From: Chitinophagaceae bacterium
GTDB lineage: Bacteria; Bacteroidota; Bacteroidia; Chitinophagales; Chitinophagaceae
NCBI GenBank assembly: GCA_947447265.1
Contig: CANFKC010000043.1
Coordinates: 1-40,918 of the forward strand
DNA length: 40,918 nucleotides
Direction: 5' to 3'
Below, in pieces: positions 2,053 through 23,373 of the stretch. Position 1 is the first letter of the stretch; the number at the start of each line of letters is the position of its first letter. Position numbers and translations under genes: made by a program. A model generated the notes under the pieces. The model did not search any database, was not told the DNA's origin, and saw only the letters and a list, made by a program, of their open reading frames with translations.

Positions 2053-3339
2053 TTAGGGGAGGCCCCACATCCCCTTAGCCTCAGCATAAGTGCCATACCC
2101 AATATGCTTGCCATTTCCATCGCCGCGTATAAACTGATTGGGTATTACCGGCGCAACATGATTGTCTACAATAAACCTTGCGCACAGTTCTACAATAAGG
2201 TTCACATCATCTTGTTTTACAGCATCCATATCCAGGTCGAGCAAGTCAATAAAACTAGTTTCGCCATTCGTCCACGCTGCGGGAGCTTCGTATCTGTTCG
2301 TGTTTTTATTTAATTCGGGTGTCACACATGGGTTTATTCGTACAATGCAGGGGTCATTATCTAAGGATGGTTTCAACACAGAAAATGCCACGAAAGATGC
2401 CGCATCAGGTGGGTCAGCAAGTATGCTCTGGGCCATCTTTGGCAGGTCTTTTAAAAAGCCAGTCTTTTTATCAGCGTGCACCATCTTGTTATTTTTATTG
2501 GCCTCGTATATTGCCTTTTGCTCGTCAGTACCTTCGTCAAAGCCAACAATCACGGGTTTGCGTGCAGCACCTGTGCCAATAGAAAGTATACGATAGTCAG
2601 CTGCCGTATTCCCCTTTCCATTTGTCATCGCTTCTACCAGCCCAGCCATGACCGGGTTATTAAATCCACCCACAGCGCCATCCCAATACCAGTCTTTCAT
2701 TTTCGCGCTGGGTTTAGTGGTCTCCCATGTTTTTACAATTGCCGGCTCATCAAAATAATTGAGGGGTGCATTTGAAGAGGCGTGCACGGCATGTAGCAGC
2801 GAAATATCCCATCTGGCAGAGTTGAAGCCTGCGGTATTACTGAGTGGGTTACTTCTGAAAAATGATTCCCGCTCTTTAAAGTAGTTATAGCCACAGACAA
2901 TCAGGTCTGGAAATTTACCTCCGACTATACCCGGTATTTGCGTCATTGGCTGGTTGGCCAGCAATTCATCACGATTGGTAACGCCTGTGCGCTGCATTAG
3001 TACTTTTTCAAGTCCCTTAAATTTGCGTTCTGCGCTATATTTTGGGCCGCCAATACCAACTGCATTCGTAAATTTTGCCCACGTTTTTTCCCAGAAGCCT
3101 AGCTTCGAAAATACCTCCTTTCTATCAGTTTCATTGGTAAATACGGAAACGATTTCGCTCATTTTAAGATTCGATACCATGGCAGCTAAAACCATGGAGC
3201 CGCCTGAATTGGCGATTACCAAATCAAAATCTCTAAGTATTTCCTGTCCGGGTAAATCACCATAAATATCTTTGAGCACCATCGCCTGTATCAAAGCCCA
3301 GGAGCCACCACCATCTAAAGAAAGAATTTTATAAGGCAT
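2053..3339 (-). CDS. Patatin-like phospholipase
   Basis: A 428-residue protein of the patatin family, Ser-Asp dyad acyl hydrolases that cleave acyl chains from (phospho)lipids. Residues 7-16 (SLDGGGSWAL) are the glycine-rich oxyanion-hole loop. The nucleophile elbow is at 43-47, A-N-S-G-G, with Ser45 as nucleophile. Residues 184-195 carry the H-A-S-S-N-A-P-x-N-Y-F segment typical of the fold. Asp220 in the D-G-A motif (219-222) is the second catalytic residue. The first glycine of the usual G-x-S-x-G elbow is alanine here. There is no signal peptide, so it is probably cytoplasmic. The gene stands alone, convergent with the preceding T9SS gene. Its substrate cannot be read from sequence. Confidence 0.88.
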   Translation of the reverse strand: MPYKILSLDGGGSWALIQAMVLKDIYGDLPGQEILRDFDLVIANSGGSMVLAAMVSNLKMSEIVSVFTNETDRKEVFSKLGFWEKTWAKFTNAVGIGGPKYSAERKFKGLEKVLMQRTGVTNRDELLANQPMTQIPGIVGGKFPDLIVCGYNYFKERESFFRSNPLSNTAGFNSARWDISLLHAVHASSNAPLNYFDEPAIVKTWETTKPSAKMKDWYWDGAVGGFNNPVMAGLVEAMTNGKGNTAADYRILSIGTGAARKPVIVGFDEGTDEQKAIYEANKNNKMVHADKKTGFLKDLPKMAQSILADPPDAASFVAFSVLKPSLDNDPCIVRINPCVTPELNKNTNRYEAPAAWTNGETSFIDLLDLDMDAVKQDDVNLIVELCARFIVDNHVAPVIPNQFIRGDGNGKHIGYGTYAEAKGMWGLP

Positions 3340-3897
3340 ATTAAATAATTTATTTACAATTATAATGCAAATAATTGAAATTGCAAATGTTCACTAATAT
3401 TAGTTTCCGGGGAAATTCTTTTGTGCTACAATAAAATAACGGGTGGAGTGGCTCCTGGTGCGGGAATGAATAAAAATCATTTGCACTTTACTCCAAACCA
3501 TTTTTAAAAGATTTTGCCGGTATTAATTTAGTGGGCACCTTTAGGTAATGGTATTCCAAACTACTGGATTGTTGTTTTTATGTAGCGGAAAAAAATAGTA
3601 TGCTTCGTTGCAGCGAGGTGAGCGAAAAGTAATTTCATTTTTTCAGGCACTGCTTAACCAGCGGTTAACTCGTTTCGATTTTGTGCTTGGTTCAGTTAGC
3701 TAGCGGTATTACCCCACGAAAGTCGTTGCAGCATGGCCCTTAACAACCAAAATGGGCGGTAATTATCCACAATTGGGGCGAATAAGGCTATTGTGTGGGC
3801 GATTTTTGTTAATTTGTACAGGTTTAATGCCCGGTAACCCAACCTTTTCCAAAGAGTGGTGGTCTTATTAAGGGTAAATATTTAATAATCACTATAC
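3340..3897. other. Long intergenic region upstream of the first ECF sigma operon
   Basis: 558 bp between the divergent patatin and ECF sigma genes. I find no convincing ORF or RNA gene. A short symmetric TTTCCGGGGAAA lies at 3404-3415, about 65 bp upstream of the patatin start. A candidate ECF-type promoter lies at 3840-3864 and is listed separately. The unusual length leaves room for regulatory sites or a small RNA that I cannot identify by eye. Confidence 0.5.
3840..3864 (+). promoter_or_regulatory. Candidate ECF-type promoter for the first sigma operon
   Basis: CAAC (3840-3843), 17 nt, GGTC (3861-3864). The same arrangement, TAAC-N17-CGTC, occurs upstream of the second sigma operon at 17726-17750. 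AAC near -35 and GTC near -10 is the general ECF promoter pattern. The match is short and could be chance. Confidence 0.25.
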
Positions 3898-4473
3898 TTG
3901 TCCATCGCATTGGCATATACCGCAACAAGTCAAGTAAGTGAGTTGGAACAACTCATCAAGGGGTGCATTCGCAATGAGCGGAGTGCACAGGAGAAGCTGT
4001 ATAAGCTCTTCTACCCTAAGATGATGGCACTGGTTCGCCGGTATATCGATTCAGATATGCAGGCGGAAGAAGTTATGAATAATGGTTACCTGCGTGCTTT
4101 TCAGAAATTGAGTCAGTATAATTTCCAGGGATCGTTTGAAGGATGGTTACGAAAAATAATTTTTCATGCCGTTTCAGACTATGTGAAGCAGAATTGCCGT
4201 TATAATGAAAAAGTAGTTCTTGTAGAGAAAGATGAAGTAGTGCATAAAGACCATGCTGATAAGTTGTATTACGATCAGCTGGTGCAATTGGTACAGGCGC
4301 TGCCCAATGCAACGCGTACGGTTTTTAATATGTACGTAATGGAAGGGTTTACGCACAAGGAGATAGGGGATATGCTGGGTATCAGCGAAGGAACATCGAA
4401 ATGGCACTTGTCGGAAGGCAGGAAGATATTGAAGGAAAAAATTGAACATTTAGAATTGCATTTTAAAGCTTAA
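3898..4473 (+). CDS. ECF-family RNA polymerase sigma factor (first operon)
   Basis: 191 residues. Region 2 covers about 33-100 (KLYKLFYPKMMAL, then FQGSFEGWLRKI, which includes the core-binding and -10 contact helices). Region 4 covers about 126-182, with the helix-turn-helix FTHKEIGDMLGISEGTSKWH for the -35 element. There is no region 1.1 or 3, as usual for extracytoplasmic-function sigmas. The start is unclear: a stop at 3886-3888 and the lack of an early ATG leave TTG at 3898 (or TTG at 3910). It is followed after 14 bp by the membrane-spanning partner, which is expected to hold it inactive. It is a paralogue of the sigma at 17858, sharing S-A-Q-x-K-L-Y and FQGxFEGWxRxI. Confidence 0.93.
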   Translation: MSIALAYTATSQVSELEQLIKGCIRNERSAQEKLYKLFYPKMMALVRRYIDSDMQAEEVMNNGYLRAFQKLSQYNFQGSFEGWLRKIIFHAVSDYVKQNCRYNEKVVLVEKDEVVHKDHADKLYYDQLVQLVQALPNATRTVFNMYVMEGFTHKEIGDMLGISEGTSKWHLSEGRKILKEKIEHLELHFKA

Positions 4474-4487
4474 AAACATTTATCCAA

Positions 4488-7253
4488 ATGGATAACAACC
4501 TTATTAATATTGATGATCTTGTAAAGCAGCGGCTAAGCGGCGGCGAGGAGCGGGAACGCCCTGGCTCCTGGTCGCGCATGCAAGAGCTTTTAGAGCAGGA
4601 GGAGAAGAAAAAGCCCATCGGCATGATCTTCTGGAGGCGCGGTTTAGGCGCAGTAGGTGTTTTGCTGCTGTTAACCATGTTAACTGTTGGCAGGGACGAA
4701 GTTATTACTGTCTTTAAGGGCCTCGGCTCTGCAATGACAACCAATAATAACAATGTTGGCACTGCTGTTGCAAACAACCACGAAGTTGCTGCCATCAGCC
4801 AGCCAAACAGCCCGGACGCTGCTGCTGCTGCTGTTAACGCACCAGTTGCGGCTACAGACAAAGCACAGGCTAATGGTACCGTTGCGGCTAACAATGTAGC
4901 AGCTGACAAGTCAGAAGCAAGTGTAGCACAACCAGTAAAGCCAGTAGCGGCAACCGTATCAACTGCGCATAGTTCAGGCAATAGCCATAAGTTGCATGAA
5001 GTTGCGGGTACTCCTGCAATTGCCGCTAAGAACGGCGTTGTGAAGAATACAACTACTGCTGCTGATGCTGATGCCAATGAGTTACGTGTAAATGAAATTA
5101 AAAACAAAGCTGGCGTTGACAAAAATGTTGCTGCTCCAATCCCGGTTGCTGGAAAGAATGTAGCTGGCAAAAATGAGCAAAATGGTACATCGCTCGTTAA
5201 AGGGACTTCAAAACCGAATGTTGCTTCAAATAACACTAATGCAATCGGCAAAAAAGATGCTGAAATTGCAGCATCTGTAGCCACCAACAACACTCCAAAG
5301 CACACTAGTGGCAATAGCAATAATGCTGCAGGTAAAAAACAACATAACACAGCTTCAAATAACATTAATACAATCGGCAATACAGATGCTGCAATTGCGG
5401 AAGCTGCAGCTACCAACAACACTCCAAAGCACACTACTGGCAAGGCCAATAGCACTGCAGGTAAAAAACAACATAAAACAAGTGCTGCGCATACTAACGC
5501 TGATAATAATTTAGCAACTACCGATGCGCGTGGTATCGCTTCAAAACAAGGTGCTTCAAAAACAACTGGTCATGCTAAGAGCGTTGATGAAGAAGTTGAA
5601 ATATCTGCCACTACGTCAACCAAGGCTAATCGTGTAACTCCAGAGAACGCAAAACAACAGCATAACAAGGGTATTGCGAAAGCAACTCCATCAGCAGACA
5701 AACGTACTGCAACTGACATCAGCAAAATGCCATTGAGCGCAGGTGTAACAGGTATTGCTGCTACAGGTAAAAAGAACAGTACTCCATCACTTGCACCGGT
5801 AAAATCGATCAATCCTGCTACCGTTGCTGGTAAAGCTGCCGTTAACACAACTCCTGTTGATATTGCAGCGGCTCCGTCTGCGTCAAAGCAAAGTTTAGCG
5901 GTGAATGCACCAGTGAATCAAACGAATGTTGGTAAAACTACTCCAACTACAAACGCGCCATTAGCAGGTGTAACACCTAAAAAGACACACGACGTTGTTG
6001 TGTCAACCAAGCAGGTGCGTACCATAGAAGCGAAAGAAAAGACAGAAGGACAATATCCGGGAAAACTTACTGCACACTACGATACTATTTTAAACGAAAA
6101 GAAGACAATAGTAGAGAAGAAAACAGTGAATGACGAGGAAGAGTTGGTAGTTAATGCAGAAATGCCAGCAACTCCAGATGCAGAAAAATCAGCTCAAAAG
6201 ACCAGGACTAAGACTAAGGGAACAGTTGCAACAGCACAGAAATCAAAACCCGGAACCAGCAGTAAAACAGCAGCAAAGGGTGGTAATAGTGCTACTTCAG
6301 TTGCTACAGGTCCAACCGTTGCTACAACTACAAAAACAGGAAACGCAACAGGTGTAGCTACTTCAGGCAGCGTTGCTTCAAGGGTATTTAAAATGACCCC
6401 AATAAGCAGAATTTTGCCTGCAGCGGCACCAAGGGCAATGGCAGCACCTGCTAATGTAAAAGCAGCAACACCGAAATTAGCCGCACTCAATCCTGCTGAA
6501 ACAGAAGGTAACGGATTGATAGCTGATAAAAAGAAGGGCTTATATTTCTTGCAAAGTTTGTCAGCCGCGTTTAATGACGTTAAGTACAAGTTTGGTAACG
6601 CTAAATTCTCTGCGGGTCTTACTGCAGGTATCAATGGCACATTCTTTGGTCCGAGCAGCTGTAAAGGCTTCCATTTCGGGGCAACTGCCAACTTTGAACT
6701 TGATGAAAAATGGAACTTCCTGGCTGAGTTGAAATATATCCACAGGGTGAACAGTACCTACTTTATGCACGTGACTTATGATAACTACATTCCTGATCCG
6801 CAGAATGGTGGCTATACTAAAGACCCTACAGAAGTTGATTATACTTTCTCTACCCTGCACAGTTTCGAGATGCCGTTGTCATTGCGTTACAATGCAGGTA
6901 AGTTAGACTTCTTTGGTGGTGCTAACTTCCTCTATACTTTGGGTGTTAACGTAACTGGTTCACCAATCAGGGTGCAGGGTGCACAGGTATCGCATGTGAG
7001 CGCTGTAGGTCCAAACAACACCCCTTCAATACAGGTGAGCGATTTCGACCGTGGCCGTTTTGGAGTTGGTTATTTGTTCGGTGTTGATTACAGGATCGCG
7101 CCAAATATGATGCTTGATTTCCGTAATGTGCAGACAGTATGGGATAATTCGCAAGGCAGTTCATCAAAGGTGGTATCTAACAATCTATTCAAGAGCCCAT
7201 CATTGCAGTTCTCTTTATTCTACACATTTGGTCAAAAGAACGACGATAAGTAA
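4488..7253 (+). CDS. Putative dual-membrane-spanning anti-sigma protein with C-terminal beta-barrel (first operon)
   Basis: 921 residues. Residues 1-50 are polar and predicted cytoplasmic, with N-I-D-D-L near the start and a Trp (W28) before an amphipathic helix. They align by eye with the N-terminus of the paralogue at 18410. Residues ~51-67 (RGLGAVGVLLLLTMLTVG) are one inner-membrane helix. Residues ~68-680 are low complexity, rich in Ala, Thr, Asn and Lys, almost free of Cys, and include a tandem duplication at 5223-5480. Residues ~683-921 alternate polar and hydrophobic/aromatic residues with Gly and Asn turns, like a PorT/OmpA-type outer-membrane beta-barrel, ending FSLFYTFGQKNDDK. Inferred role: the N-terminus binds the upstream sigma and the barrel senses outer-membrane state. 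Proteins of this plan (Dma) have, to my recollection, been described in Bacteroides. A plain porin-like protein is the alternative, but the N-terminal helix and sigma neighbour argue against it. Confidence 0.75.
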   Translation: MDNNLINIDDLVKQRLSGGEERERPGSWSRMQELLEQEEKKKPIGMIFWRRGLGAVGVLLLLTMLTVGRDEVITVFKGLGSAMTTNNNNVGTAVANNHEVAAISQPNSPDAAAAAVNAPVAATDKAQANGTVAANNVAADKSEASVAQPVKPVAATVSTAHSSGNSHKLHEVAGTPAIAAKNGVVKNTTTAADADANELRVNEIKNKAGVDKNVAAPIPVAGKNVAGKNEQNGTSLVKGTSKPNVASNNTNAIGKKDAEIAASVATNNTPKHTSGNSNNAAGKKQHNTASNNINTIGNTDAAIAEAAATNNTPKHTTGKANSTAGKKQHKTSAAHTNADNNLATTDARGIASKQGASKTTGHAKSVDEEVEISATTSTKANRVTPENAKQQHNKGIAKATPSADKRTATDISKMPLSAGVTGIAATGKKNSTPSLAPVKSINPATVAGKAAVNTTPVDIAAAPSASKQSLAVNAPVNQTNVGKTTPTTNAPLAGVTPKKTHDVVVSTKQVRTIEAKEKTEGQYPGKLTAHYDTILNEKKTIVEKKTVNDEEELVVNAEMPATPDAEKSAQKTRTKTKGTVATAQKSKPGTSSKTAAKGGNSATSVATGPTVATTTKTGNATGVATSGSVASRVFKMTPISRILPAAAPRAMAAPANVKAATPKLAALNPAETEGNGLIADKKKGLYFLQSLSAAFNDVKYKFGNAKFSAGLTAGINGTFFGPSSCKGFHFGATANFELDEKWNFLAELKYIHRVNSTYFMHVTYDNYIPDPQNGGYTKDPTEVDYTFSTLHSFEMPLSLRYNAGKLDFFGGANFLYTLGVNVTGSPIRVQGAQVSHVSAVGPNNTPSIQVSDFDRGRFGVGYLFGVDYRIAPNMMLDFRNVQTVWDNSQGSSSKVVSNNLFKSPSLQFSLFYTFGQKNDDK
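5223..5480 (+). repeat. 129-bp tandem duplication inside the linker of the first barrel protein
   Basis: Two direct copies, 5223-5351 and 5352-5480, each 43 codons and in frame. Both encode A-S-N-N-x-N-x-I-G early, NNTPKHT in the middle and AGKKQH near the end. The copies differ at several codons, so the duplication is not recent. A diverged continuation follows. Such units allow linker length to change without breaking the frame. Confidence 0.85.
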
Positions 7254-7285: not shown

Positions 7286-7323
7286 GCATCCCGTACTATT
7301 TGCTTAGTGCGGGATGCTTTTTT
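7286..7323 (+). terminator. Rho-independent terminator of the first sigma operon
   Basis: GCATCCCGTAC (7286-7296) pairs with GTGCGGGATGC (7307-7317) with one mismatch around a 10-nt loop, followed by a run of T. It lies 33 bp after the barrel gene and closes a two-gene operon. Confidence 0.88.
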
Positions 7324-7794: not shown

Positions 7795-8892
7795 TTATTT
7801 TATTACGCTCAGCTGCCCTGCAAGTGCATCGCCAGCTGCGGTTTTTATGGTGTAGATATAGTTGCCGGCAGGTAAGTTGTCAGTTGCAACAGATACAGTA
7901 TGGTCGCCGGCATTGTATGACTGGCTGCTGATGTTGTTCACCAATTTGCCACTCATATCCAGCAGGTTAATAGTAACAGTCGTAGGTGTTGCTATGCTAA
8001 ATTTAATGTTGGTAGCCGTAGTAGCCGGGTTAGGGTAGTTGCCGAACAAAGAGAGATTGTTTTTAGTAACACTATTTACGCCGGTAGGTCCGCCAATAAG
8101 TACAATCGGGAAGATGGCAAGGTCGTTGAAAATAGAGTCGTTTTCGGTATAGTTTTCATGCCAGTTGTTGTCGGCCCATTGCGTTGCATTTTGCACATGC
8201 ATTACTGTATCGATATGGGTAGTGTCGCCGCTGTCTCCAAAAGTGTATACAACGTTGTATAGCGAAATAGAACGATGGCCATTTTGCGTAGAAGCAAGAC
8301 CTATTGTATCGCCGGAAAGCGATGTAAAAGTATAGTTCATATCGTAGCCAATAAAAAAAGCGCCATTAAGCGTTATTGACGGAGTCGCAAACGTAAATGA
8401 TTTCATAGTGTCGCCAGCAGCAGCTATGCCTAATTGGGTAAATGGCACAGTAAGGGTGTTTACTGTGTTATTAGGGTAACCTTCGTAAACAACAGTTCCG
8501 CTAACGCGTTTTGGTGCGGTAATATCCCAAACTTTAAAGTTGACTACCTTGCTTGATGTGCTTGCAACTTTACCACCAAACTGCGCCATGATACCAATAA
8601 CTTTTAAAGAACTATCATGACCGTTAAAGAAATAACGTTCAGCAAAAGCTTTGTCGTTATATGAATTGGTGCCGGTAACATACCCATGAGCAGTGCCGGT
8701 ATAGCTGATAACAACTAACGTATCGGACGCAGCGATATTAGTAAGGGTATAAGTGGAGCCTGCACCTGTTGTGCGGGCAGCCACACCTGATGGGGCATTA
8801 GTAACATGGGCTTCATGAGTCGTAACAGTACGTTGTGCAAAGCATGAGGTACCCAGGTAAGCGGCAAATAATAGTAGAAAAGCTTTTTTCAT
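7795..8892 (-). CDS. Secreted protein with T9SS type A sorting domain
   Basis: 365 residues. A signal peptide covers about 1-20 (KKAFLLLFAAYLGTSCFAQ). Residues ~21-270 are a Thr/Gly/Asn-rich beta-type domain that I do not recognise, with no catalytic motif visible. The last ~85 residues (from about 280) contain LFGNYPNPATTATNIKFSI, then LLDMSGKLV and NLPAGNYIYTI. That is a textbook type A sorting tail for type IX secretion. It ends next to its own terminator and has no operon partner; aroC upstream ends 132 bp before its start. Export to the cell surface or medium is well supported; the activity is unknown. Confidence 0.85.
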   Translation of the reverse strand: MKKAFLLLFAAYLGTSCFAQRTVTTHEAHVTNAPSGVAARTTGAGSTYTLTNIAASDTLVVISYTGTAHGYVTGTNSYNDKAFAERYFFNGHDSSLKVIGIMAQFGGKVASTSSKVVNFKVWDITAPKRVSGTVVYEGYPNNTVNTLTVPFTQLGIAAAGDTMKSFTFATPSITLNGAFFIGYDMNYTFTSLSGDTIGLASTQNGHRSISLYNVVYTFGDSGDTTHIDTVMHVQNATQWADNNWHENYTENDSIFNDLAIFPIVLIGGPTGVNSVTKNNLSLFGNYPNPATTATNIKFSIATPTTVTINLLDMSGKLVNNISSQSYNAGDHTVSVATDNLPAGNYIYTIKTAAGDALAGQLSVIK

Positions 8893-17750: not shown

Positions 17751-17857
17751 ATGTACCTTAATATGAGGACGTAAGTTTACAAATAATAAAATAAATAATA
17801 TTTTTTTTGACTGACGCAATTGCCATAAACGGTTTCTTTTCAACACAGGAAAACAGG

Positions 17858-18403
17858 ATGTCGAAAGACAATGATCTTGTTATGCTTGTGAGGGATTGCA
17901 TGGCTCAGTCAAGAAGCGCACAAAAAAAGCTATATGATATTTATGCCCCTGCTGCCTACGGAATTATAAAGCGGTATATGTACCATAACGAGCAGGCTGC
18001 ACAGGAACTGCTGAATGATTCATTCTACAAGATATTTACCAAACTGGACCAGTATTCGTTCCAGGGAGCGTTCGAAGGTTGGATAAGGCGCATAGTGGTA
18101 AATACAGTGACTGATTATCTGAGAAAAAATATTAAAGACGAACAGCTGCACAAGGAAGTAGCGCCGGATGATGGTTTTATTGAAAGCAATTCCGTGCAAA
18201 ACCTTTCATACAAAGAATTGTTGCAAGTGGTGCATACGCTACCCGAAGCGCAACTAGCTGTTTTCAATCTGTTCGTTTTTGAAAATTACCCGCATAAAGA
18301 AATAGCAACCCTACTCGAAATAAATGAGAATAACAGCAGATGGTATCTGAATGATGCCAGGAGGAGATTGAGAGAGAAATTACAATTTAATAGTGCCCAA
18401 TAG
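17858..18403 (+). CDS. ECF-family RNA polymerase sigma factor (second operon)
   Basis: 181 residues from the ATG at 17858, which is preceded by an AGGA-like sequence. An upstream TTG at 17807 would add 17 residues. Region 2 covers about 23-90 (KLYDIYAPAAYGII, then FQGAFEGWIRRI). Region 4 covers about 117-175, with the helix-turn-helix YPHKEIATLLEINENNSRWY. It shares the plan and many residues with the sigma at 3898, so the two are paralogues, but the recognition helices differ (EINENNSRWYL versus GISEGTSKWHL), suggesting different targets. It is followed after 6 bp by the barrel protein that probably controls it. Confidence 0.93.
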   Translation: MSKDNDLVMLVRDCMAQSRSAQKKLYDIYAPAAYGIIKRYMYHNEQAAQELLNDSFYKIFTKLDQYSFQGAFEGWIRRIVVNTVTDYLRKNIKDEQLHKEVAPDDGFIESNSVQNLSYKELLQVVHTLPEAQLAVFNLFVFENYPHKEIATLLEINENNSRWYLNDARRRLREKLQFNSAQ

Positions 18404-18409
18404 CATACA

Positions 18410-21271
18410 ATGGAACAAAAATTAGAAAATATTGATAATCTTTTTCGAGAGGGGCTTGGTAGCTATACCGAGCTTCCGCCTCCCTCCGTATGGGATGCCC
18501 TCGAAGAAAGATTAGATAAAGACAAAAAACGCCCCGGCTTCTTCTATCGCTGGTCCTGGTTTGTTTTACTACTTGCCTTTTTTGGCGCGGGTGGTGCTGC
18601 CTTTTTTGCCTGGAAAACGGCAGGAAGTGGCAACGGCATTGCATCGCAGCCAATTGCGGCCAGTGATGCGAGTGCAATAAAAAGTGCAACAACTCCTGAT
18701 ACGGAAAGGAATGTTGCGGGCGAAACTACAACAGGTAAAAAATCGGAGGTTGTTTCTTCAACACCTGAAAATTTAAACACTAAACAACGTGGGAAATTAT
18801 ATACAGGCATTACGCCAGTTGTTGTAACTACCGCAAATGCAGTTGCCTCCTCGGCAACAGAGGATAATAACTTGCCGGTGGCAGAAAAGATCGCGACCAC
18901 TGCGAAACCTGTGAGCATGGATCAGGCCATTGCACTGAATTCCGCTCCAGCCTCGGATGCCGGTATAAATGATGTGCCTCAGCCAACCAAGACTGCTGTA
19001 ATAAAATATATAGTAAAGAACAGCACGCACAATAATATTGCCATTGCAGAATCAGAGCCTGTTTTTGTAAATGTAAGAGATACAAAGGCGGACAATCTTA
19101 TCTCTAATCCGGTAGAGGATGACGAAGAGGAAATGACTTTTGGAAGCGCAGCCAGCAAAGCAAAAATAAGAGCAACAAACCGCAAGCCGGTTGGCAATAC
19201 GAATCATTATGCAGCTTCACCTGTTTCGGTAAGGAACGGCGCGGCAAAGAGTGTATCCGCAATTGCTGCGCACAATAAAAATGTTAAGAGCAAAACAGCT
19301 ATTACAAATACTAAAGGCAGTACCTCCAACAATGGAAGTAGGGCAGTAAATAGAAATAATGAAGTTACCGTTACTACAACGGCCGCTGAAATAAGCAGCG
19401 CTAAAAAATCAGCACCAGTTGCAGTTGCGACAACGGTAGATAATTCAGTAAAAGCTAAAGCCAGTGCGCAAGTAGCGACAACGCCGGAAAAGGCAAATAG
19501 TGGAATTATCGCGGTTGTAAAAGATGCTGGTAACAGTTCAAACACAGCACAGGCTGCAGCGATGCGTTCGACTGAAAAAGCAGCGAAAAACAAAGCGACG
19601 AAAAGCCCGATTGTTGCTGTCGAAAAAAGTGCTAAAAAAGAAGCCCTCAACCCTGCGGCAACTGCCGTTTCGAAGAAAGAAAAAGTAGTGGCAATTGCTG
19701 AAAAACCAGCCCACAATAATGCTGTTGAAAAAACTAGCTTACAACAAAAAGCAACAGTTGGTGGAACAGCAAACCGTGTCGCCGACGGTACTAATAATTA
19801 TGCGGCTAAGCCTGCACTTGTAACGCCTGCTGTTGCAAGCAAAAATGCAGTGATGCACAAAAGCAACAGGCATAATATTAAGGCAACACCTAAAGCAACA
19901 GCCGCAAAAACTGAAGCCGCAACAACCAAGCAACTTGAGCCCAATTCAGCTAGGGTAGCGAAGGGTAATGATGTTGCTGCTGCACCGAACAAAGCCCAAG
20001 CAAGTGCCACAAAGAAAAGCAGTAAGGCAATTGTTACTACACCTAAGGAAGTTGCAGCGAAACAGTCCAAAATTGCAAAGAAACATACACCTTCTATTGC
20101 TACAGCAGAAAATGGGGAGGACGTTTTTGCGGATGCATCCTTGAAAGGGAAGTCGCATAAAAGCTCAGCGCATAATATTGCGGGCGTAACTTCAAAAACA
20201 TCGAAAGCGAATAAGACCAAAACAACTAATGATAAGCCTGCTTTCGCTGCAGGCAAAAACAAGCAACAAAAAGGTAATAATGCTGCTACTCCTGTAGCTT
20301 CAGCTTTAACTAAAAAGGCAGAGCCCGCTATGGCCGTAGTTACAACCGCTGCTGCCCCTGTGCCACAGGCGGCACCGCCTGCTCCCAAGCCAGCGGTAAG
20401 CCAGAATAAAGATAGCATCCCGGCGGCACCTCCAGCTACTGGAGCAACAGCTCTACAAAACGATAGTCCTGTTGCCCGGCGTAAACGGTTTTTCTCAGGG
20501 ATTGAAGTTGGGGTTAAGGCTGGCTATGAAGGCAGCTTTGCAGCAGGTGGCGCACAAAAATTTGTAGTTACGCCTTTCCTTGAAAAGAAATTGTCTTCAA
20601 AATTTTCTTTGCTGGTTCAACCCGGCATAAAATATGCAGGCTTGAGTTCGCACAAACTGAATGGCACTGCATCTTATATTGATGCAGACAACAACAGCAC
20701 AGTCTATCGAAATGATTCTTTTATAGTGGTCGATACCGGAGGAACAATAATCGGTTGGTTACATTATGATACTGCAACTCAAAAGCACACGTCTGTAGTT
20801 AAGTCTTATGCGGTGAGTGGATCGTACCTTGAATTTGATTTCCCGATATTGCTGAAATACAATGTCACCAGCAAATTCTCGGTTTATGGTGGAGCCAATC
20901 TGACCTATTCAAAACTGATAGGTATTAAAGAGGCGACCACCACAGGTGCTTCTTCCTTCGTTACCGCTGACACAACTTATTTTACCCCTGGAAACACTCC
21001 CGCAGCGCATCCGCTGGCGAATAGTTACATGGCCTATGCCGCCACGCCTTTGTCTGGTTATAAGGGCCCCCTTTATCCTTCGCCTACCGGTGGAGCTTTC
21101 CGAATTGGTTATATGTTTGGCTTTAGCTACCAGTTAAATAAGCGTTGGCTCGCCGATGTGCTGGTGCAGCAAGCAAGTGTGAAAGCCAATATGCAGGGCG
21201 GCTATAATGTAAATACAGCCCTTTCTCAAAACTATTTCAGGTTTACCATTGGTTACAAGCTTTTTCAATAG
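18410..21271 (+). CDS. Putative dual-membrane-spanning anti-sigma protein with C-terminal beta-barrel (second operon)
   Basis: 953 residues. Residues 1-46 are a cytoplasmic domain with NIDNLFREGL and the P-P-x-S-V-W-D-A-L-E-E motif; W28 matches W28 of the paralogue at 4488. One inner-membrane helix lies at ~48-68 (WSWFVLLLAFFGAGGAAFFAW). Residues ~69-690 are a low-complexity Ala/Lys/Thr/Asn/Ser linker, turning proline-rich at ~650-685 (PVPQAAPPAPKPAV). Residues ~693-953 form a barrel-like domain: SGIEVGVKAGYEG, KFSLLVQPGIKYAG, LEFDFPILLKYNVTSKFSVYGG, ending in FTIGYKLFQ. Inferred topology: cytoplasm to outer membrane in one chain, with the N-terminus sequestering the adjacent sigma. The mechanism (proteolysis or direct conformational signal) is not visible. 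The linker is nearly the same length as in the first copy but unrelated in detail. Confidence 0.75.
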   Translation: MEQKLENIDNLFREGLGSYTELPPPSVWDALEERLDKDKKRPGFFYRWSWFVLLLAFFGAGGAAFFAWKTAGSGNGIASQPIAASDASAIKSATTPDTERNVAGETTTGKKSEVVSSTPENLNTKQRGKLYTGITPVVVTTANAVASSATEDNNLPVAEKIATTAKPVSMDQAIALNSAPASDAGINDVPQPTKTAVIKYIVKNSTHNNIAIAESEPVFVNVRDTKADNLISNPVEDDEEEMTFGSAASKAKIRATNRKPVGNTNHYAASPVSVRNGAAKSVSAIAAHNKNVKSKTAITNTKGSTSNNGSRAVNRNNEVTVTTTAAEISSAKKSAPVAVATTVDNSVKAKASAQVATTPEKANSGIIAVVKDAGNSSNTAQAAAMRSTEKAAKNKATKSPIVAVEKSAKKEALNPAATAVSKKEKVVAIAEKPAHNNAVEKTSLQQKATVGGTANRVADGTNNYAAKPALVTPAVASKNAVMHKSNRHNIKATPKATAAKTEAATTKQLEPNSARVAKGNDVAAAPNKAQASATKKSSKAIVTTPKEVAAKQSKIAKKHTPSIATAENGEDVFADASLKGKSHKSSAHNIAGVTSKTSKANKTKTTNDKPAFAAGKNKQQKGNNAATPVASALTKKAEPAMAVVTTAAAPVPQAAPPAPKPAVSQNKDSIPAAPPATGATALQNDSPVARRKRFFSGIEVGVKAGYEGSFAAGGAQKFVVTPFLEKKLSSKFSLLVQPGIKYAGLSSHKLNGTASYIDADNNSTVYRNDSFIVVDTGGTIIGWLHYDTATQKHTSVVKSYAVSGSYLEFDFPILLKYNVTSKFSVYGGANLTYSKLIGIKEATTTGASSFVTADTTYFTPGNTPAAHPLANSYMAYAATPLSGYKGPLYPSPTGGAFRIGYMFGFSYQLNKRWLADVLVQQASVKANMQGGYNVNTALSQNYFRFTIGYKLFQ

Positions 21272-21432: not shown

Positions 21433-23373
21433 ATGAAATTGAGTCTTGTTTCGTTTTTTGTTGCCCTTCTTGTTTTGTTTTGTTCGCCTGTTTTTGCGCA
21501 GAATATTGATACTTACGCAGGCACGGGTACCGCTGGCTTTAGCGGTGATGGTGGCCCGGCAACTGCTGCAAAAATAAACGGCCCATATGCAGTTACCGCT
21601 GACGTTGCGGGTAATGTGTATTTTGGCGACTACGGAAATTTCAGGTTAAGAAAAATCAATTCATCAGGCATTATAACTACTATAGCCGGAAATGGTACAG
21701 GTGGAAGCACCGGAGACGGCGGCCCTGCGGTGAGTGCCACAGTGGGTTATATAAAAGGTATTTGTTTGGATAATGCAGGAAATATTTATTTCGCTGATAA
21801 TTATGATGTTGTAAGGAAGATCAATGCAATGACCGGGATTATCAGCAGGGTGGCAGGGATAGCCGGCTCTTCTGGTTTTAGTTCTGACGGTATACAGGCA
21901 ACAGCAGCAACATTATACAATCCAATAGGACTTGCTATCGACAATGCTGGAGATCTGCTGATTGCAGACCAGTTAAATTCAAGGATAAGGAAGGTGAATA
22001 TGTCGACCGGGATTATTTCTACTATTTGTGGTACAGGCACAGCCGGTGGCACGGGTGATGGCGGTCCTGCAACAGCTGCATTGGTCAACTATCCTTCCGG
22101 CGTTGCGGTAAGTTTGACAGGTAATATTTACGTAGCTGATTTCGGTAGTAATAAAATAAGAAAGATAAATACTGCAGGTAATATTTCAACAATTACCTAC
22201 CCTGTAGCAACAGGCTCATACGGTTATTCGGGAGATGGCGGCCCATCTACTGCGGCTCACATTTATTATCCGTTCGGGGTAGCTACTGATACGAGTGGTA
22301 ACATCTACATCAGCGACCAAAACAATAATACAATAAGGAAGATCAATACATTTGGCATTATCAGTTCTTATGTTGGTTATGGTTTTTTGGCTGGTACCGG
22401 AACAGGTGCCTACGGTGGCGACGGCGGTCCTGCAACGGGTGCGAAAATGAGCCAGCCATCATCATGCGTGGCGGTGCCTTCGTTGGGTAAAATATACATT
22501 GCTGACAGGGACAATAACAGGATAAGGGTAGTATCGACATTGCACAAGCCTTATTTTACAAATGGACATAACCAGAGCTTTACCATCTGCCAGGGTACGG
22601 TTAATGCGGGTTTAGATACGATGCTGGCCATAGATGATATTGATGTTGGACAAACTGAGATATGGAGTCTTGTGAGCGCGGCTGGCCATGGTGCGCTGGT
22701 AGTTGGTTACTCGGCGTCATCAACGGGTGGTACAATCATTCCTTCCGGTTTATTGTATTCTCCTTTCAGTTCTTATTTCGGTCTCGATTCTTTCAAGGTA
22801 AGGGTTTGGGATGGCACGGGCTACGATACGACGACCATAACAGTAAACATATTACCTAACTATCCTTTCGCTATTACCGGCAAAGATTCGCTTTGTCCGG
22901 GAGATACCACTACGTTGTATAATGTTGTTCCGGGTGGTACATGGGGAAGTTCAAATGGTGCCATTGCGTCAGCAGGCGCATCAACCGGGTTTATTACTGC
23001 GCTTACTCCGGGTATGGATACCATCACCTATACTTACACCAACCCTTGTGGTACTACAACTTCCTATTTTTCTTTGCTGGTTGGTACCTATACTTATTGC
23101 CGCACCGGTATTGCCGGGCATGCTGCAAATGAACAGGAATTGATTGTGGCTCCCAACCCGAGTTACAGCACGTTTGCCCTCACTGTTGCTTCTGCGCAAG
23201 AGCAGGAGGCGCATATTGTCATCACCAATATAATGGGGGTGAAGGTTAAGGAATTTACGGTAATGACAAATCATACTATCGATGTGTCGCAGGATTATGC
23301 AGCCGGAGTTTATTTCCTTGTAGCGAGAACCGGGGACGGCAAATTCACTACAAAGATGATCACTAAATTATAA
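21433..23373 (+). CDS. Secreted NHL-repeat beta-propeller protein with T9SS type A sorting domain
   Basis: 646 residues. A signal peptide covers ~1-22 (LVSFFVALLVLFCSPVFAQ). Residues ~25-370 hold six NHL-type repeats of ~54 residues, each with G-D-G-G-P-A-T, then G-N-(I/V)-Y-(I/F)-A-D and R-K-I-N, forming a six-blade propeller. Residues ~375-475 resemble a bacterial cadherin-like module (DIDVGQTEIWSLVS). Residues ~475-560 are an Ig/Big2-like module (GGTWGSSNGAIASAG). The type A tail (~575-646) starts IVAPNPSYSTFAL and ends AAGVYFLVARTGD...MITKL. It is exported by type IX secretion. Propellers of this kind bind proteins or glycans; the partner is unknown. A strong terminator follows. Confidence 0.9.
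   Translation: MKLSLVSFFVALLVLFCSPVFAQNIDTYAGTGTAGFSGDGGPATAAKINGPYAVTADVAGNVYFGDYGNFRLRKINSSGIITTIAGNGTGGSTGDGGPAVSATVGYIKGICLDNAGNIYFADNYDVVRKINAMTGIISRVAGIAGSSGFSSDGIQATAATLYNPIGLAIDNAGDLLIADQLNSRIRKVNMSTGIISTICGTGTAGGTGDGGPATAALVNYPSGVAVSLTGNIYVADFGSNKIRKINTAGNISTITYPVATGSYGYSGDGGPSTAAHIYYPFGVATDTSGNIYISDQNNNTIRKINTFGIISSYVGYGFLAGTGTGAYGGDGGPATGAKMSQPSSCVAVPSLGKIYIADRDNNRIRVVSTLHKPYFTNGHNQSFTICQGTVNAGLDTMLAIDDIDVGQTEIWSLVSAAGHGALVVGYSASSTGGTIIPSGLLYSPFSSYFGLDSFKVRVWDGTGYDTTTITVNILPNYPFAITGKDSLCPGDTTTLYNVVPGGTWGSSNGAIASAGASTGFITALTPGMDTITYTYTNPCGTTTSYFSLLVGTYTYCRTGIAGHAANEQELIVAPNPSYSTFALTVASAQEQEAHIVITNIMGVKVKEFTVMTNHTIDVSQDYAAGVYFLVARTGDGKFTTKMITKL

Follow-up and report, generated by a model that had tools for sequence, protein, structure and literature searches.

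Organization of the operon

The window analyzed here is a 40,918-nucleotide (nt) stretch of DNA from a Chitinophagaceae bacterium (contig CANFKC010000043.1, assembly GCA_947447265.1), in which we have characterized a two-gene operon encoding an extracytoplasmic function (ECF) sigma factor and a putative anti-sigma factor that is predicted to span both membranes. The sigma gene (3898-4473, + strand) encodes 191 amino acids from a TTG start. Its stop codon is separated by 14 nt (AAACATTTATCCAA) from a 921-amino-acid open reading frame (ORF; 4488-7253, + strand), and an intrinsic terminator consisting of a stem of 13 pairs and a T-run lies at 7286-7317 (+ strand). These coordinates, the 14-bp spacing and the terminator had been proposed in an earlier reading of the same DNA (the original prediction), and they agree with the ORF list, the gap sequence and the position of the stem. 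The terminator scan as a whole returned 2 terminator-like sites versus 3.7 in shuffles, and it is only the place and strength of the 7286-7317 element that support it.

Gene order, domain layout, conservation, a promoter motif and the enrichment of that motif were computed in this work. From them we consider it likely that the pair consists of a sigma and a putative anti-sigma of the dual membrane-spanning anti-sigma factor (Dma) design, in which a cytoplasmic head would restrain the sigma, an outer membrane barrel would act as sensor, cleavage would bring about release, and the released sigma would direct a surface regulon. As described in the available part of PMC13088901, Dma proteins carry an N-terminal anti-sigma domain, a transmembrane helix, a disordered tether and a C-terminal barrel, and are encoded beside an ECF sigma. 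The original prediction had pointed to a likeness to this family, and the layout is indeed that of the described proteins. The core finding is a further protein of the Dma design and is not new in kind; it is placed there by layout, not by sequence homology to Dma1-3.

The sigma assignment follows from two Pfam domains, both above their cut-offs (Sigma70_r4_2, E = 8.2e-13; Sigma70_r2, E = 2.2e-9), and a profile of this sigma matched ECF sigmas of solved structure. In NCBIfam, TIGR02985 comes closest, but at 77.3 bits it falls short of the 126.4 bits required. The start motif was found in 53 aligned upstream sequences, that of the window among them, and TTG occupies the same start position in 52; the remaining one reads TAT and is probably in the wrong register. 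The conserved TTG start perhaps keeps sigma synthesis low.

Predicted architecture of the 921-residue protein

An AlphaFold2 model of the 921-residue protein (mbec5d8b1f131, built on 62 sequences; pTM 0.43) resolves it into a series of segments, all encoded on the + strand. The predicted cytoplasmic head (residues 1-46; 4488-4625) contains helices at 8-17 and 27-40 and passes into a helix at residues 46-75 (4623-4712) that holds the inner membrane span and is rich in Lys and Arg on its N-terminal side. Values of the predicted local distance difference test (pLDDT), taken by block, are 53-70 across residues 1-70. The head and helix are followed by a tether that is predicted to be disordered and periplasmic (residues 76-682; 4713-6533), is rich in Ala, Thr, Lys and Asn, and has pLDDT values mostly below 50. 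Within it lies a conserved predicted β-hairpin (residues 504-545; 5997-6122) with strands at 504-522 and 526-545, block pLDDT values of 57-81, and an Asp-Thr pair at D532-T533. A further helix at residues 686-704 (6543-6599) stands immediately before an outer membrane β-barrel at residues 706-913 (6603-7226), where block pLDDT values are 80-97.

The barrel was also recognized by Pfam (OMP_b-brl_2 at residues 707-881, above cut-off) and by Foldseek, whose top matches to the model in the Protein Data Bank (PDB) were OmpA, NspA and Ail (E = 1.3e-6 to 1e-5; OmpA 1bxw, 1.3e-6), with TM-scores by target of 0.57-0.62 once a whole-OmpA model at 0.31 is set aside. Further matches included OmpX and OmpW, as well as larger barrels such as FapF. 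Compared with PDB sequences, the barrel gave no match (best E = 0.17). By our own grouping of the listed strands, the modeled barrel appears to have eight. By the Foldseek matches the barrel is like the small outer membrane barrels OmpA, OmpX, Ail and NspA, none of which, to our knowledge, is tethered to the inner membrane through its own chain.

A second AlphaFold2 model, of a Taibaiella lutea ortholog that is ~20% identical, showed the same two head helices, a helix at 48-75 (pLDDT down to 42), a disordered tether and a barrel, and it repeated the hairpin at 288-306/311-329 with block values of 74-81. The 47-row alignment behind it largely overlaps the first one, and the second model is accordingly not fully independent. 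The original prediction had staked itself on a C-terminal barrel, and one is predicted at 706-913 by AlphaFold2, with agreement from Pfam and Foldseek; the head, the single transmembrane helix and the long linker leading to the barrel are likewise predicted in both orthologs. Its description of the linker as low-complexity needed amendment, in that most of the segment is disordered and residues 504-545 form a conserved predicted hairpin.

Conservation was scored by region as the mean frequency of the majority residue in 75 sequences, window included. The head had the highest value of the regions compared (0.69), followed by the barrel (0.52) and the transmembrane segment (0.50), and the tether scored 0.16 outside the hairpin island (501-545) and 0.27 within it. 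Four head residues (D9, W28, M31 and L35) are invariant in 62 sequences, and D532 and T533 of the hairpin are each present in at least 90% of them. In 67 of the 75 sequences the tether contains at least one DT dipeptide whose next residue is I, V, L or T, a figure that comes without a chance control.

These values bear on a different account of the protein, namely that it is an ordinary barrel, extended at its N terminus by a long segment whose signal sequence is cleaved or vestigial, and merely co-transcribed with the sigma, which would be governed by some other anti-sigma. We think this improbable. The head is better conserved than the barrel (0.69 versus 0.52), and for that reason a reading of the N terminus as a signal peptide and nothing else was rejected. 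The head and hydrophobic helix also recur even in short partners, such as those of 263 and 300 amino acids in the genome of the window, and helix 46-75 is continuous in the model. What speaks for the ordinary barrel is that the head has no counterpart among the families of Pfam and NCBIfam and that binding between head and sigma is something we infer.

Conservation of the pair

Genome contigs were scanned for members of the sigma family, and the best 80 of 532 loci were kept. A head-type ORF follows the orthologous sigma gene at 79 of these 80 loci, and the exception ends at a contig edge. By our start rule, the ORF begins between -32 and 143 nt from the sigma stop codon at the 79 loci, and 74 of the 79 partner proteins are complete, with lengths of 554-1036 amino acids. 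Recurrence at this rate indicates that the arrangement is more than chance. None of the eight other window genes was found at more than 2 of the 80 loci, within a reach of ~5 kb from the sigma. One of the 80 loci (L168) is titled Azovibrio and comes from a metagenome-assembled genome that is possibly misnamed. In a set of 99 genomes, including that of the window, a match to the 921-residue protein was obtained in 20 (E of 1e-5) and a match to the sigma in 94 (E of 1e-20). The genome searches made with the sigma covered Bacteroidota.

A predicted promoter and its enrichment

Alignment of the 53 upstream sequences revealed a predicted ECF-type autoregulatory promoter, CCCAACC-N17-GTCT, which in the window lies at 3838-3865 (+ strand), with 32 nt between it and the start codon of the sigma gene. 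The exact motif is present in 55 of 80 sigma upstream regions (the window plus 79 loci), and 0.0 occurrences are expected from mononucleotide shuffles. The presence of an ECF-like promoter in front of orthologous sigmas points to autoregulation, and judging from the sequence it looks as if the sigma transcribes its own operon from this element. A scan of the window for sigma-70 promoters returned sites no commoner than in shuffles.

Genome-wide counts of the motif were made in 15 of the 20 genomes with the pair and, of the 79 genomes without it, in 10 that belong to the family, with the reversed pattern as control. Exact sites numbered 52 versus 11 for the reversed pattern in the genomes with the pair, and 10 versus 22 in those without it. 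The enrichment is significant by Fisher's test (p = 2e-6; 2e-5 after dropping 11 self-promoters) and may partly reflect relatedness, 7 of the 15 genomes with the pair being of one genus. Sites were intergenic at 17 of the 20 loci checked in genomes with the pair, compared with 1 of 10 in genomes without it.

Predicted targets

Targets were judged at 41 of the 52 sites in genomes with the pair, and 2 of the other 11 sites are self-promoters by position. The gene downstream was the sigma itself at 9 of the 41, a PorP/SprF gene at 5, a DUF2911 gene at 4 and the same helix-turn-helix (HTH) gene at 2. Another 7 sites precede secreted-looking proteins of at least 204 amino acids, mostly judged by eye. 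A PorP gene followed the motif at 0 of the 10 sites in genomes without the pair. The motif precedes a 106-amino-acid HTH_3 protein at L242 and L256 (genomes G008 and G003), a possible further regulator.

PorP/SprF genes were then compared across four genomes, which together contain 24 of them. The motif stands before 5 of the 6 genes of one clade (3 exact and 2, both in the genome of the window, with one mismatch) and before 0 of the 18 genes outside that clade, a count that is partly circular, PorP sites having already been noticed in three of the four genomes when these were chosen. With the pattern relaxed so as to admit that mismatch, the genome of the window has 6 sites versus 1 for the control; this count too is partly circular, the pattern having been set after the one-mismatch PorP sites were seen. 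The relaxed sites precede the sigma gene, two tandem PorP/SprF genes, a DUF2911 gene and a gene for a 1169-amino-acid protein with a type B sorting domain of the type IX secretion system (T9SS), and one, on contig C74, has no ORF downstream. PorP-like proteins are reported, in the portion of PMC9143113 available, to anchor type B cargo, and it is this role that makes PorP/SprF and a type B protein a coherent predicted set.

A proposed mechanism and its alternatives

In the mechanism that we propose for this Dma-like protein, the 46-residue two-helix head would keep the ECF sigma at the inner membrane, through which one helix would run. The slack disordered tether would cross the periplasm, and the outer membrane would house an eight-stranded barrel. 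The signal would start with a change there that leaves the barrel uninserted, lost or ligand-bound, after which, most likely, the tether and then the membrane helix would be cut and the sigma freed. The freed sigma would drive its own operon from CCCAACC-N17-GTCT, together with one PorP/SprF clade, sorting-domain cargo and DUF2911 genes. Head-sigma binding, barrel sensing, proteolytic release and the regulon are the steps that we infer.

That the head restrains the sigma is the best reading of the layout when it is taken together with Bacteroides thetaiotaomicron, in which, according to the available text of PMC13088901, the effects of deleting dma1 and dma2 depend on the cognate sigma. The same source proposes that Dma proteins are single chains reaching from the cytoplasm to the outer membrane, and describes their signals as unknown.

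The release step can be considered in light of the dimensions of the tether. Across the 75 sequences its length ranges from 241 to 729 residues (median 403; window 612), which corresponds to a contour of ~87-262 nm versus a rule-of-thumb coil span of ~14-27 nm; the 612 residues in the window give ~220 nm and, by the same rule of thumb, ~24 nm. A tether with this much slack can hardly pass on a pull or a rigid change, and cleavage is favored for that reason. The original prediction had the sigma released directly, without a protease relay, and this part of it is unsupported given a disordered, slack tether of such variable length. A mechanical pull was likewise dropped as the main route. More generally, a route without proteolysis, in which the state of the barrel is relayed along the tether to the head by a pull or a conformational change, seems unlikely to us: beyond the hairpin island there is scant conservation along which a disordered, slack chain of 241-729 residues could be expected to act as a relay, whereas the reach of one chain all the way from the cytoplasm to the outer membrane would suit such a route, as would the finding that none of the neighboring genes tested is kept beside the pair, so that no dedicated protease gene was seen there. 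As to the proteolytic mechanism, the genome of the window yielded one M50 (RseP-type) protease, with nothing that ties it to the 921-residue protein. As to where a protease or a partner might act, the hairpin at 504-545 would be our guess.

Some cell-surface signaling anti-sigmas also act as positive cofactors. By analogy with a dual role of the FecR type, the head could be such a cofactor, the sigma being active only with the released head; its strong conservation would be in keeping with this. The deletion of dma1 or dma2 in B. thetaiotaomicron, however, acts through the cognate sigma in the manner of a lost restraint, as far as the available part of PMC13088901 goes, and we give a cofactor role little credence.

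Several observations weigh against restraint by the head, sensing by the barrel and control of a surface regulon, in addition to the relatedness, the partial circularity and the unmatched head noted above. Neither a signal nor a protease has been pinned to the 921-residue protein, and the pLDDT values of the head helices are modest (53-70), with some positions lower still in the T. lutea model. In the alignment headed by T. lutea, the Asp-Thr pair of the hairpin falls outside the columns that reach 90%. With respect to the promoter, 25 of the 80 sigma upstream regions, mostly those of more divergent orthologs, are without the exact motif, and with 2 mismatches allowed the window itself has 3 occurrences versus 6.3 expected, which is no excess. 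Of the genomes with the pair, one has no site (G030), one has the self-promoter only (G036) and one has a single site for which no target was found (G041). There is no convincing target at 14 of the 41 sites judged, and one PorP gene of the motif-bearing clade (L320) is without the motif.

Comparison with known systems

The closest counterparts are Dma1 and Dma2 of B. thetaiotaomicron with the sigmas Das1 and Das2 (ECF21), which, as described in the available part of PMC13088901, share with our pair the head, the transmembrane helix, the long tether, the barrel, the adjoining ECF sigma and the phylum Bacteroidota. They differ in that the effects of Dma1 and Dma2 in that source concern vesicles and polysaccharide, whereas the predictions for our pair point to genes of type IX secretion and of the cell surface, and in that dma2 belongs to a three-gene operon there, whereas our pair stands alone. 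The conserved tether hairpin and the promoter are features found here, Dma1 and Dma2 being compared with our protein by their description only (PMC13088901).

A head of two α-helices is also found in CnrY of Cupriavidus metallidurans, a class II anti-sigma that wraps CnrH with one helix on region 4 and the other on region 2 (available portions of PMC7406223 and PMC4598750). In our protein the two helices are predicted, and the likeness is one of layout. The same portions describe neither a tether nor a barrel for CnrY, which responds to CnrX, a sensor in the periplasm.

Control of type IX secretion genes by ECF sigmas has precedents in SigP of Porphyromonas gingivalis (PMC4800418, PMC7712824) and in the SM6 motif of Flavobacterium psychrophilum, whose promoters include that of an ECF sigma/anti-sigma pair (PMC9723704). 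SigP acts with PorXY, and the available portions of these three papers link no two-membrane anti-sigma to SigP or SM6.

Among the papers listed, our literature search found no publication joining Dma to type IX secretion; the one co-mention is a Dma phrase in a reference list. What we regard as new is the pairing at 79 of 80 loci, the tether hairpin, the enriched CCCAACC-N17-GTCT motif with its PorP/SprF, DUF2911 and sorting-domain targets, and a second pair in the window; the regulon and the release step of the sigma are predictions. The predicted targets would tie the Dma design to type IX secretion instead of to vesicles and polysaccharide use. The lineage supplies dozens of natural variants, a reporter-ready promoter and a removable hairpin, with which the release step becomes testable.

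A second pair and the wider class

A second ECF sigma gene (17807-18403, + strand; 198 amino acids, with Pfam Sigma70_r2 and Sigma70_r4_2 domains) lies in the window, ~10 kb from the first pair, and its product is 37% identical to the first sigma. The original prediction for the first pair made no mention of it. Starting 6 nt past it is a gene for a second Dma-like protein of 953 amino acids (18410-21271, + strand), which has a head and a hydrophobic helix and whose barrel is below cut-off in Pfam (OMP_b-brl, E = 0.0055). CCCAACC-N17-GTCT was not found before this pair. In an alignment of 6 sequences, the second sigma has a conserved promoter-like element of its own upstream, CTAACGTT-N14-CGTC.

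The genome of the window contains at least three more sigma/partner pairs, with partners of 444, 300 and 263 amino acids, and a sixth, weak sigma match (C4:56143, E = 1.1e-6). Beyond it, 30 further sigma loci picked from the strongest matches were inspected, of which relatives contributed 10 and the phylum at large 20. The protein after the sigma has an N-terminal segment and a hydrophobic helix at all 30, and by our reading the head Trp is present in 28. In an earlier set of relatives' loci, 19 of 20 partners were head-type by eye, the exception (L100) having a transporter-like ORF after the sigma. Some sigma partners are short and have no evident barrel. Among the phylum-wide sigma matches listed there is no sigma-head fusion of the Dma3 kind, the largest listed open frame being 271 amino acids.

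A class I anti-sigma adjoins only 6% of Bacteroidetes ECF sigmas, and other classes may dominate (PMC7406223, available portion); a widespread two-helix head would fit this scarcity. We tentatively propose, as one possibility, that widespread anti-sigmas with two-helix heads report on the state of the envelope, and that the envelope-spanning form in Flavipsychrobacter and Taibaiella senses barrel assembly through the hairpin and retunes surface-anchored type B adhesins by inducing one PorP/SprF clade and its cargo, which would link the state of the outer membrane directly to type IX secretion.

At six loci (L093, L096, L098, L099, L102 and L286), the sigma partner appeared by eye to carry two to four tandem head-like repeats, that of L286 being 671 amino acids long. 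Such partners could bind more than one sigma.

Other genes near the two pairs include a patatin-like phospholipase gene (2053-3339, - strand) that is divergent to the first sigma gene. Its product resembles phospholipase models of the cyclic-oligonucleotide-based antiphage signaling system (CBASS), below their cut-off, and it was beside the pair at 0 of the 80 loci. Both pairs also have in their surroundings genes whose products carry type A sorting domains of the T9SS, at 380-1915, 7795-8892 and 21433-23373 of the window.

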